Assembly: GCA_002254845.1 (NCBI GenBank)
Contig: NKPT01000010.1
Span: 1 to 64,000, forward strand
Source of the DNA: Chloracidobacterium sp. CP2_5A
GTDB lineage: Bacteria; Acidobacteriota; Blastocatellia; Chloracidobacteriales; Chloracidobacteriaceae
Direction: 5' to 3'
Length of the DNA stretch: 64,000 nucleotides
Shown: piece by piece, positions 59,734-64,000 of the stretch
How positions within the stretch are numbered: position 1 is the first letter of the stretch
Layout: the number at the start of each line of letters is the position of its first letter
Made by a program: the position numbers and the translations under genes
Notes under the pieces: model-generated
What the model was told of the DNA's origin: nothing
The model's database searches: none
Seen by the model: only the letters and a program-made list of their open reading frames with translations

Positions 59734-59763
59734 GCGTTAGGTCGCGCTCAGGCGTTAGGTCGC
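59728..59763 (-). repeat. 18-bp tandem duplication across the queD stop and MFS start
   Basis: Two copies of gctca[t/g]gcgttaggtcgc. On the minus strand the copy at the queD end contains its stop (ACC TAA) and the copy at the MFS end contains ATGAGC, where the other copy reads CTGAGC. Confidence 0.85.
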
Positions 59764-60123
59764 CTCGCCGTAGTAGTGACAAGCTGACGTGCAAGTTTCA
59801 GCAATGCTCACGCGATACAGACAAGGTAATGCCGGCGACAGCCGTTCCCAAATCCAGCGCGCGAGGATTTCGCTAGTCGGGTTTTCAAGTCCCGGAATTT
59901 CATTGAGATAGTAATGGTCGAGCTGTTGCCGCAGCGGCTCAAAAGCCTGCTTGATCTGGTCGAAGTCCAGGAGCCAGCCAAGCTCGGGGTCAACCTCGCC
60001 GCGGACGACGATTTCCGCGCGATAGCTGTGACCATGCAAGCGGCGACACTTGTGGTCGGGCGGCACATGGGGCAGCCGATGCGCCGCCTCGAAAGTGAAA
60101 GTTTTGGCAAGCTCGACAAGCAT
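59755..60123 (-). CDS. queD: 6-carboxytetrahydropterin synthase (QueD)
   Basis: Enzyme of queuosine (7-cyano-7-deazaguanine) biosynthesis, 122 residues. Zinc ligands: EAAHRL (His) and LHGHSY (two His); the catalytic region DFDQIKQAF and NPTSEILARWIW are normal. ATG 60123 is preferred over TTG 60129. Other que genes are not in the window. Could in principle be a related pterin synthase (PTPS-III), but the C-x-x-H region is not that of a folate enzyme. Confidence 0.92.
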   Translation of the reverse strand: MLVELAKTFTFEAAHRLPHVPPDHKCRRLHGHSYRAEIVVRGEVDPELGWLLDFDQIKQAFEPLRQQLDHYYLNEIPGLENPTSEILARWIWERLSPALPCLYRVSIAETCTSACHYYGEAT

Positions 60124-60355
60124 AGACAAACCAACGGCTCAGGCTAATTGTGATATTACGCACGATGGTCGAAGCGTCAACGCCAAGCCGGCGTCAAGTC
60201 CCGCCGGATAGCCGCCGCCGCTTGACTTGCGCTTGCCTCGGCACATACCGTTTGACTCGCGCATTCGCTCTCTTTCGCTAGCTTCTCGACTCGGCTTTCT
60301 TCGCCCTGGCCGGCTACGTCTCGAATGTGGACGGCCAAGCTATCAGCCCGCACGC

Positions 60356-63300
60356 ATGACTGAATACGAGTCGCCGACCGAACCGATCGAAGTCCAGCCC
60401 GATCCGTTGCTTGGGACGGTCGTGGACGGGAAGTACCGCATCGAGCGCGTGCTCGGCGTGGGCGGCATGGCTACGGTGTATGCGGCGATACGATTGCAGA
60501 TTGGCGATATGGCGGCCATCAAGGCGCTCACGCCGGAGTCAACGGCGGTGCCGCTCGCGGTTGCCCGCTTCCAGCGCGAGGTGCGCGCCGCCGCCCGGAT
60601 CAAGCACCCTAACGTCGTGGCGATTTATGACTTCGGCAGCCTGCCGGACGGCCGCGCCTACATGGTGATGGAATACATCACCGGGGAATCGCTGCGGGAG
60701 GAGCTCAAGCGCGCCGGCCGGCTCGCGCCGGAGCGAGCGGTCGCCATTCTGACCAGCGTGTGCGCGGCGATTCACGCGGCGCACCAGGAAGGCATCCTGC
60801 ACCGCGATCTCAAGCCGGAAAATATCATGCTGGCGCGTCAGCGGGACGGCGCGGAAGTCGTCAAGGTGGTGGACTTCGGCGTGGCCGAGCTGCATGAGCA
60901 GGCGACGGCTTCGGCCATGACGAAGCTGACGGAGTATGGCTTGATGGTGGGCACGCCGCACTATATGTCGCCGGAGCAGTGCCGCAGCGAGCCGCTCGAC
61001 CCGCGCTCGGATGTGTATAGCCTGGGCATCATCGCCTACGAGTTACTGACCGGCACGGTGCCTTTCAACGCCCGGACGGTGTCGGCCGTCATTATTCAGC
61101 AGGCCACGGAAGCGCCGCGCCGCCCGCGCGACTTGAACCCGGAGTTGAGCTGGGCGTTAGAGCATGTCATTTTGCGAGCGCTGGAAAAGGACCCGGCGCG
61201 GCGACCGCAAACCGCCGCTGAACTCGCCCAAGACCTCAGCCTGTCGCTGTCGAATATTCGCCCGTCGCTGTCAAGCATCCGGCCAACGACTTCGCTGGGC
61301 GGCTTTGTCGCGCCCCCGACGGGCGAGATGACAGGGCCGCTGTTGCCGCCCATGACCGGCGGCGGGACAACGGAGCTGCCGTCCCGCGCGATAGTCGCCC
61401 GGCGGTCGGGCACGCTGCGTTACGACAGCCTGACCGGGATTCGCAATCTGACCTTTCTCAAGCAGGAAGTGGAAAGCCTCGTGGCGGCCCGCCGGACGGC
61501 GTCGCTGTTGCTGGTCAGCGTGGACAACCTAAAAGCCTATGCCGACCAGCTAGGCTATGCCGCCGGCGACAGCCTGCTGCGGGAGCTCGCCCACTGGCTT
61601 CGGGATCACGTCGGCGAGCTGGGGGTCGTGGCGCGCTTAGGCGGCGACGAGTTCGCCATTCTGCTGCCTGGAAGCGCCGCCCCCGACGCCATTGTGTTCG
61701 CCGACCAGATGGCCCGGCGTCTGGCGGAGCAGCGGTTTCTGCGCGCCGAGGTGCCGAGCGGGCTGACCGTGCAAGTGACAATCGCCGTCGTGGTGTCGCC
61801 GGATGACGCCGCCACGGGGATTGGGCTGTTGGACGCGGGCGGGCAGGCGCTGGCCATCGCCAAACAGCAAGCGCCGGGCCGCGTCTATCGGCAGGGGCTG
61901 GACGACCAGACCCTGCGCGAGCATCCAAACTTCAACGCCTTTGTCGGACGCGACCAGGAACTGCGGAAGCTGCAGGAGATGTTCGACCGGACGGCGGCCG
62001 GGCACGGGCAGCCCGTCCTGGCGATGGGTCCGACCGGTATCGGCAAGACGCGCCTGGTGCACGAGTTTCGGCGGCGACTCGCCGGCCGCGAAGTGACGTT
62101 TCTCGCCATGCCCTTTTATGAAGCCGGGCAGGGAACGCCGTATAAATCCTTCTACGACAGTTTGCGGGGAACCCTTCAGGCGCTGCTCGAAGCCGCCGAG
62201 CCGGCGCTTATCCAGCAGATGTTCGGGCCACTCGCCGAGCGCGTCGCGCTTGAGTTTGGCACGGAAGACGGGTTTTTGCATTTCTGCGAAGCCGTGCAGT
62301 CGGAAAGCCCGCACGAGAGGTATCTGGCGTTTGAGTATCTCGCGGCGCTGTACGCCACGCTGTCCAGCCGCCAGATCACCGTGCTGTTCGTGGACGACGC
62401 GCACTTCGCGGATGAGCTTAGTCTGGACTTGTTGGCGTACCTCGCCCGCTCGACGGCCGAACAGCGGCTAATGCTCATCCTCGCGGCCCGCTCGGAGCTG
62501 CTGACCGAGCAGCACCCGCTCCGCAACTGGATGCGGGCGGTCAATCAGTCGGTCGGCTTTGAGTTGCTGACGCTGGAGCCGTTATCGCTGGACGACGTTA
62601 TGGCGCTGGTGCAGGCGACCTTTCCCAAAATCAAGACGACCTCCGGCGTTATCGCCCGCCTGCACGCGGAAACGCGCGGCAATCCCTTCTTTTTGGCTGA
62701 GATCCTGCGTCACTTGGTTCAGACCAAGCACATTGCGCGCCAGGAAGAAGGCTGGGTCTTTCCGCCGCTGACGGATGTCTCGCTGCCGCCGTCGGTCATC
62801 GAGGTCGTCGAGGCTTCCTTTTCGCGGCTCTCGCCGGGGGCGCTGGAGCTGTTGTCGCAGGCGGCTGTGATCGGCATGGACTTTACGTTCGACTTGTTGC
62901 TGACCGTTACGGAGCGCCCGGAGCGCGAAGTGCTGGCGGCGGTCGAGGAGGGGCTGGCGCAGGGCATCATCGCGGAGCTGACCGAGGCGGAAGAGGACAG
63001 CTACCGCTTTCGGCACGGGACGGTGCAGAAAGTGCTCTACAACCGCCTCAATCGCCGGCGGCGACGCACGCTTCATGCCGCCGTCGGTCATGCGCTCGAA
63101 CAGGCGGCGACCGCGACCGGCCGGGGCGGTCGGCTCGCGGGCGAGCTGGCCTTTCATTTCCACCATGCGGCGGAACACCTTCCGACCCTGCGCTACGCCG
63201 CTTTGGCCGGCACGCAGGCCTGGCGAGCGTGGTCCATTGACGAGGCGCTGAAATTCTACGGCTGGGCCGAGGAAGCCGAGCGCCGACTCAACATCCTGGT

Positions 63301-64000
63301 GGATGTGATTTTTGACGAGAAGCAAGCTTCATTTGACAAAGTGCCGGTCGAGCAACTCCGGCTCATTGCCGACTTCAACCTCAACTATGGGCAAATGCTG
63401 GTACACATCGGCCAGCTGACCGAAGCCGAGAAAAAGCTTCAGTTAGCGCAAACGCTGGCCCGCCCCTCACAGGATGAGCACCTGCGGGGGAAAACGCTGG
63501 CGGCGCTAGGCGAGCTGTGCGAGGCGCGCAGCGAGTATTCGTCGGCGCTGCTGTACTGCCATCAGGCGCTTGAAGTCCTGCGGCGCAAGGGCGATAAGCG
63601 CGCCGAGGCCCGGACCACCGCCGTCATCGGCACGCTCTACGACCGCCTTGGGCAGTTTGCGCGCGCGGCGGACGCGCTCGACAAGGCGCTGGCGCTGGCG
63701 CGCGCCATCCGGGACCGGCAGGTTGAAGCTCTCGCCCTGCGCGAAAGCGCGTTTGTCCGGGCGCGGCAGGGCGAGTTCGCCTTGGCGCTGACGCTGGCCG
63801 GCGAAGGTCTAGCTGCGGCGGAGCGCTTGGCTGATCCGCTGGGGATTTCCATTGCCGCCAGCATTCTGGGGGCCACGCTGCGGGCGCAGGGCGATTACGA
63901 GGCGGCTATCGAGCGATTTGAGCAGGCCCGCCGACTGACCCAAGACCTCAGCCGCCCTCGCAGCGCGTGCATCGAGCTGATCAACATCGCCGAGTGCCTG
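60356..64000 (+). CDS. Ser/Thr kinase-GGDEF-ATPase-TPR multidomain protein (3' end cut)
   Basis: A 1215-codon open frame, running off the right edge. Domains by residue: protein kinase about 20-300 (VLGVGGMATVY, AAIKAL with Lys56, HRDLKPEN at 149-156, DFG at 173-175, GTPHYMSPEQ), so it looks catalytically complete; linker 300-360; GGDEF domain about 362-530 (YDSLTGIRNL, VVARLGGDEFAIL with GGDEF at 429-433, no RxxD inhibitory site); ATPase about 535-1000 (FVGRDQEL, Walker A GPTGIGKT at 558-565, Walker B LFVDDAH at 677-683); then TPR-like helical repeats to the edge. Divergent from queD, 232 bases apart. Kinase and cyclase partners are unknown. Confidence 0.93.
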   Translation, partial: MTEYESPTEPIEVQPDPLLGTVVDGKYRIERVLGVGGMATVYAAIRLQIGDMAAIKALTPESTAVPLAVARFQREVRAAARIKHPNVVAIYDFGSLPDGRAYMVMEYITGESLREELKRAGRLAPERAVAILTSVCAAIHAAHQEGILHRDLKPENIMLARQRDGAEVVKVVDFGVAELHEQATASAMTKLTEYGLMVGTPHYMSPEQCRSEPLDPRSDVYSLGIIAYELLTGTVPFNARTVSAVIIQQATEAPRRPRDLNPELSWALEHVILRALEKDPARRPQTAAELAQDLSLSLSNIRPSLSSIRPTTSLGGFVAPPTGEMTGPLLPPMTGGGTTELPSRAIVARRSGTLRYDSLTGIRNLTFLKQEVESLVAARRTASLLLVSVDNLKAYADQLGYAAGDSLLRELAHWLRDHVGELGVVARLGGDEFAILLPGSAAPDAIVFADQMARRLAEQRFLRAEVPSGLTVQVTIAVVVSPDDAATGIGLLDAGGQALAIAKQQAPGRVYRQGLDDQTLREHPNFNAFVGRDQELRKLQEMFDRTAAGHGQPVLAMGPTGIGKTRLVHEFRRRLAGREVTFLAMPFYEAGQGTPYKSFYDSLRGTLQALLEAAEPALIQQMFGPLAERVALEFGTEDGFLHFCEAVQSESPHERYLAFEYLAALYATLSSRQITVLFVDDAHFADELSLDLLAYLARSTAEQRLMLILAARSELLTEQHPLRNWMRAVNQSVGFELLTLEPLSLDDVMALVQATFPKIKTTSGVIARLHAETRGNPFFLAEILRHLVQTKHIARQEEGWVFPPLTDVSLPPSVIEVVEASFSRLSPGALELLSQAAVIGMDFTFDLLLTVTERPEREVLAAVEEGLAQGIIAELTEAEEDSYRFRHGTVQKVLYNRLNRRRRRTLHAAVGHALEQAATATGRGGRLAGELAFHFHHAAEHLPTLRYAALAGTQAWRAWSIDEALKFYGWAEEAERRLNILVDVIFDEKQASFDKVPVEQLRLIADFNLNYGQMLVHIGQLTEAEKKLQLAQTLARPSQDEHLRGKTLAALGELCEARSEYSSALLYCHQALEVLRRKGDKRAEARTTAVIGTLYDRLGQFARAADALDKALALARAIRDRQVEALALRESAFVRARQGEFALALTLAGEGLAAAERLADPLGISIAASILGATLRAQGDYEAAIERFEQARRLTQDLSRPRSACIELINIAECL

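Follow-up and report, generated by a model that had tools for sequence, protein, structure and literature searches.

A kinase-GGDEF-STAND-TPR protein of Chloracidobacterium with a probably inactive GGDEF domain

Introduction

Proteins of the TIGR03903 family (TOMM system kinase/cyclase fusion) presumably carry their cyclase domain ahead of an ATPase/TPR-like part. STAND proteins with TPR repeats, such as PH0952 and MalT, are monomers in the ADP-closed form and become multimers in the ATP-open form (PMC6468293). In PleD, magnesium is bound via D327 and E370, the base via N335 and D344, and the phosphates via K442 and R446; D327, N335 and D344 are reported to be essential to GGDEF activity (PMC7288161). 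Degenerate GGDEF domains with a regulatory or other role occur in Caulobacter CC3396 and B. subtilis YybT (PMC7288161).

Here we describe a protein of Chloracidobacterium sp. CP2_5A in which elements of these systems form a single chain. The window, that is, the whole stretch of DNA that was analyzed, comprises 64,000 nt (contig NKPT01000010.1, positions 1 to 64,000), and all features of the gene given below lie on its + strand.

Gene structure and domain order

The kinase-GGDEF-STAND-TPR gene (P0002, 60356..64000) starts with ATG at 60356 and has its first 1215 codons in the window. As the earlier note had stated, this frame is stop-free up to the window edge; in the contig sequence the stop lies at about position 64531, 531 bases past the window, giving a total of 1391 aa. 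The Pfam matches to Pkinase, GGDEF, AAA_16 and TPR, obtained by scanning residues 1-1215, are all above the curated cut-offs, and they follow one another along one chain in the order kinase, GGDEF, STAND ATPase, TPR, in agreement with that note. No C-terminal DNA-binding domain was found by Pfam in window residues 1-1215.

The Hanks-type Ser/Thr protein kinase domain occupies residues 27-289 (60434..61222; PF00069, E=2e-51), and its nearest solved relatives are PknB and StkP. The G-loop, the invariant Lys (K56), HRDLKPEN and DFG, all noticed earlier in the translation, are indeed present, and these motifs, as well as the Walker motifs of the ATPase, are conserved wherever a family member includes the respective region. 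The kinase is the predicted output of the protein. It is followed by a low-complexity Ser/Thr/Pro linker (residues 296-350, 61241..61405) and by a GGDEF-fold domain, probably inactive (residues 356-505, 61421..61870; PF00990, E=1e-24, and fold match).

The STAND/AAA_16 ATPase (residues 529-708, 61940..62479; PF13191, E=1e-25, and model) has the features by which STAND proteins are recognized, namely a P-loop NTPase core with Walker A (GPTGIGKT, residues 558-565, 62027..62050) and Walker B (TVLFVDD, residues 675-681, 62378..62398), and a repeat sensor after it. The TPR sensor-type repeats start at about residue 1001, the Pfam TPR matches at about 1046, and they run on past the window edge (63356..64000; TPR_12, E=8e-17, TPR_MalT, and model, in which this region forms helical hairpins). 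Among solved structures, the model of residues 520-1215 (pLDDT 86) best matches 6mfv, which is that of a STAND ATPase carrying a TPR sensor; given the low global TM-score (0.36-0.38), the comparison supports the fold class and the domain order, not the relative placement of the domains. The ATPase with helical repeats, which had been proposed to be a sensor part, can thus be specified as a STAND/MalT-type switch.

Within the genus, the kinase is the most constrained part (median dN/dS 0.047), followed by the TPR part (0.084), the ATPase (0.088) and the GGDEF domain (0.095), whereas the linker evolves fast (0.42); the absolute values are rough, as dS exceeds 1. Since the value for the GGDEF domain is about equal to that for the ATPase, the domain is not decaying, and its contrast with the linker demonstrates that it is maintained. 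Hence, the GGDEF domain is under purifying selection and has some function. Across the order, it diverges fastest among the folded parts.

Catalytic residues of the GGDEF domain

The GGDEF fold is secure at the level of structure prediction: the AlphaFold model (pLDDT 86) has PleD as its top fold match (TM 0.83). According to the alignment, the window copy has Ser388 (61517..61519) in the position of the metal-binding Asp D327 of PleD, Ala396 (61541..61543) in the position of the guanine-binding Asn N335, Asp at D344, Lys at K442, and Pro at R446. The GGDEF loop is intact (residues 429-433, 61640..61654), and K332 is retained as well. Accordingly, of the characters of a diguanylate cyclase, the fold, the family profile and the loop are present, while the metal Asp is absent and the base contact is reduced to D344.

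Two of these losses are shared by most of the family. The D327 equivalent is kept in 1/20 family members, the distant L027, versus 10/10 canonical GGDEF controls, five of which are encoded in this genome and five in other bacteria, and R446 is lost in 19/20 members. At the same time D344 is invariant (20/20), and both N335 and K442 are kept in 18/20, which hints at a retained nucleotide contact. The GG[DE]EF loop is kept in the window copy and in 6/7 genus members and is degraded in most of the remaining order, where its GG has mostly been lost. The protein shows that cyclase activity is poorly predicted by an intact GGDEF motif alone. The complete GGDEF signature reported earlier is therefore correct as to the letters of the loop, but the residues needed outside the loop are missing.

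As key catalytic residues are lost, the GGDEF domain is probably catalytically inactive and a regulatory part of the kinase rather than a producer of c-di-GMP, whose synthesis by this protein is unlikely. The direct coupling of phosphorylation to c-di-GMP suggested in the earlier note is not sustained, given that the metal Asp is replaced in 19/20 members and the window copy lacks both the Asn and the Arg. Inspection of the alignment revealed no RxxD inhibitory site, as had been observed; the lack of product inhibition deduced from it presumes an active cyclase, which is not supported, key catalytic residues being gone. Predicted cyclases can also be without RxxD (PMC7911125).

Distribution of orthologues

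The whole protein is encoded by a single open frame in 6/6 other same-genus genomes searched (81-88% identity). Orthologues are present in two further genera of the Chloracidobacterium family (56-57% identity) and in members of a second family of the order (37-42% identity), and a second, more diverged copy is often present. Full-length orthologues with the same domain order at 37-88% identity exclude a frameshift or a join of two genes, the error that the earlier note had itself envisaged. The gene does cross the window edge, and the assembly consists of 385 contigs, but as the same single frame recurs in six congeneric genomes, of which three are assembled into 2 contigs, and throughout the order, the chance that an assembly or sequencing artefact fused separate genes is practically nil.

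Matches at E<=1e-110 are confined to one order among 396 genomes drawn evenly across the phylum Acidobacteriota. In a pattern-limited scan of 84,980 species genomes the full architecture was found, among the matches listed, only in an uncultured Chloracidobacterium and a Blastocatellia MAG, occurrence outside the phylum being sampled rather than settled by this search. The plasmid records contained no place covering 80% of the kinase-GGDEF-AAA region, and 120 sampled genomes of the WOR-3 phylum gave no match at E<=1e-60 in a search run without a positive control. No description of a protein of kinase-GGDEF-ATPase-TPR order was found in the open-access literature; within this limited body of papers, there is no sign of the many described homologues that would have made the order a familiar one. 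Judging from the sequences compared, the protein combines known parts in a new arrangement, which in this sampling is restricted to one order.

Genomic context

In the genus, the gene stands alone and is divergent from a gene of the 6-pyruvoyl tetrahydropterin synthase (PTPS) family (QueD-like; 59755-60129 in the window). The QueD-like gene beside the kinase gene is conserved at 90% in a congener. In another family of the order (L135:4502-12432 and L136), the gene lies between trpE and the genes for cyclophilin and a trpG-like amidotransferase. No common neighbour was found when the genus locus was compared with the other-family locus, and because the neighbourhood differs between families, it gives no clue to a pathway.

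The genome (3.4 Mb) contains more than 30 Hanks-kinase matches. In one further gene, outside the window (L009:11464-15231, contig C134 about 67463-71230), a Reg_prop + Y_Y_Y sensor is fused to a Ser/Thr kinase; sensors of this type are usually found on histidine kinases. No EAL domain was found in the genome. Three GGDEF domains of this genome that are canonical in other respects (C14:7479-7958, C82:34196-34675, C379:34294-34770) have Ser or Asn at D344, a substrate-specificity position, and such a residue could alter the nucleotide specificity.

Related architectures and origin of the domain order

Kinase-STAND-TPR relatives without GGDEF are present in the same genome and order. The same-genome paralogue (C27, L010:3091-8127) shares Pkinase, AAA_16 and TPR with the studied protein and belongs to the same ATPase clade, but it lacks GGDEF and its TPR part is longer. 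In the ATPase tree, proteins with the kinase-GGDEF-STAND layout fall together with the GGDEF-less kinase-STAND proteins of their order (support 1.0), and the WOR-3 proteins stand apart from both. Since the ATPase clade is shared with GGDEF-less proteins, the kinase-STAND pairing is likely older, GGDEF having been gained or lost within it; the inner branches of the clade are too weak to tell gain from loss.

Other lineages show different layouts, in line with the earlier remark that the domain order is unusual. In proteins of candidate division WOR-3 (L037-L039), GGDEF also stands immediately before AAA_16 and TPR, but there is no kinase, the catalytic residues are canonical, and the ATPase belongs to a different clade, due to which this is probably an independent fusion. 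An origin from a WOR-3-type GGDEF-AAA-TPR protein plus a kinase is thus not favoured, since the ATPase groups with proteins of the kinase-STAND type from the same order. A Clostridium MAG protein (L103, kinase-AAA-TPR-GGDEF-GAF) has all four of these domain types in a single polypeptide, but its GGDEF domain lies at the C terminus and retains the DxD and GGEEF residues. A truncated GGDEF-AAA-TPR protein of a Fermentibacteria MAG (L066:1-2883) lies at a contig edge, with any upstream kinase out of view.

Proposed mechanism and alternatives

The best explanation, to which we give somewhat better than even credence, makes the protein a soluble Hanks kinase switched by its STAND part, with the GGDEF domain as a non-catalytic regulatory module. 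The TPR array would sense a protein or a ligand, whose binding would convert the ADP-closed STAND ATPase into an ATP-open form that self-associates; this self-association, acting as the switch, would bring the N-terminal kinase domains together, and the paired kinases would trans-autophosphorylate and then act on substrates. The GGDEF domain, folded and under constraint, would have a regulatory role in the linker between the kinase and the ATPase: it would make no c-di-GMP but would most likely bind either a guanine nucleotide or the GGDEF surface of a partner and thus bias kinase dimerization, that is, act as a nucleotide sensor or a dimerization module. The existence of the kinase-STAND core without GGDEF counts in favour of the STAND-switched kinase, and the metal Asp kept in L027 counts against the non-catalytic reading of the GGDEF domain. 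A further point against the proposed mechanism is that the window copy lacks the base-contacting Asn, by which guanine binding would be weakened in this species.

The role of the GGDEF domain can be read in other ways. It is possible, though we consider it rather doubtful, that the domain is a pure structural spacer or dimerization surface, free of nucleotide: it is the fastest-diverging folded part across the order, and degenerate GGDEF domains of E. coli make homo- and heteromeric contacts (PMC5635695), but the conservation of D344, N335 and K442 in most members is beyond the need of a spacer. Only tentatively can the degenerate GGDEF domain be seen as a receptor of GTP, (p)ppGpp or c-di-GMP that directly gates the Ser/Thr kinase through the STAND switch. 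An active diguanylate cyclase producing c-di-GMP under the control of the kinase or STAND part is quite improbable. The loop, D344, K332 and K442 kept in the window copy would suit it, as would the five canonical GGDEF proteins and two PilZ domains of the same genome, due to which c-di-GMP signalling probably operates there, but it is opposed by the replacement of the metal Asp by Ser, the base Asn by Ala and R446 by Pro, by the order-wide loss of the Asp, and by the degradation of the motif outside the genus.

If the GGDEF domain of the STAND-switched kinase is a non-catalytic nucleotide receptor, the protein would carry a signal from guanine nucleotides to Ser/Thr phosphorylation within one chain, in a lineage of phototrophic acidobacteria rich in Hanks kinases, and such a receptor-gated kinase would be a previously undescribed direct link between nucleotide second messengers and Hanks-kinase signalling. 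The natural series of homologues, with GGDEF present or absent and the loop intact or eroded, is well suited for testing the role of a pseudo-enzyme domain.

Comparison with known systems

The GGDEF domain resembles those of CC3396 and YybT, in which the GGDEF fold has lost catalysis and gained a regulatory or other role, as is probably the case here; to our knowledge, neither of those two domains is joined to a protein kinase or a STAND ATPase. The C-terminal half is similar to the STAND ATPases of the PH0952/MalT type (6mfv) in having a helical TPR array after the AAA_16 core, but only here are a kinase and GGDEF fused N-terminally.

The best NCBIfam match of the protein is TIGR03903 (E=3e-105, over about 1270 positions), with a score of 353 bits versus the curated cut-off of 705.75. 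As the score is below this cut-off and no match to a YcaO gene, the expected TOMM context, was found in the genome, a function in TOMM biosynthesis was rejected. Still, the TOMM kinase/cyclase fusion is the nearest named architecture: in both cases a Ser/Thr kinase is at the N terminus, while the cyclase of TIGR03903 is of class III and its place here is taken by GGDEF, which by analogy is most likely the counterpart of the cyclase in the TOMM kinase/cyclase fusions.
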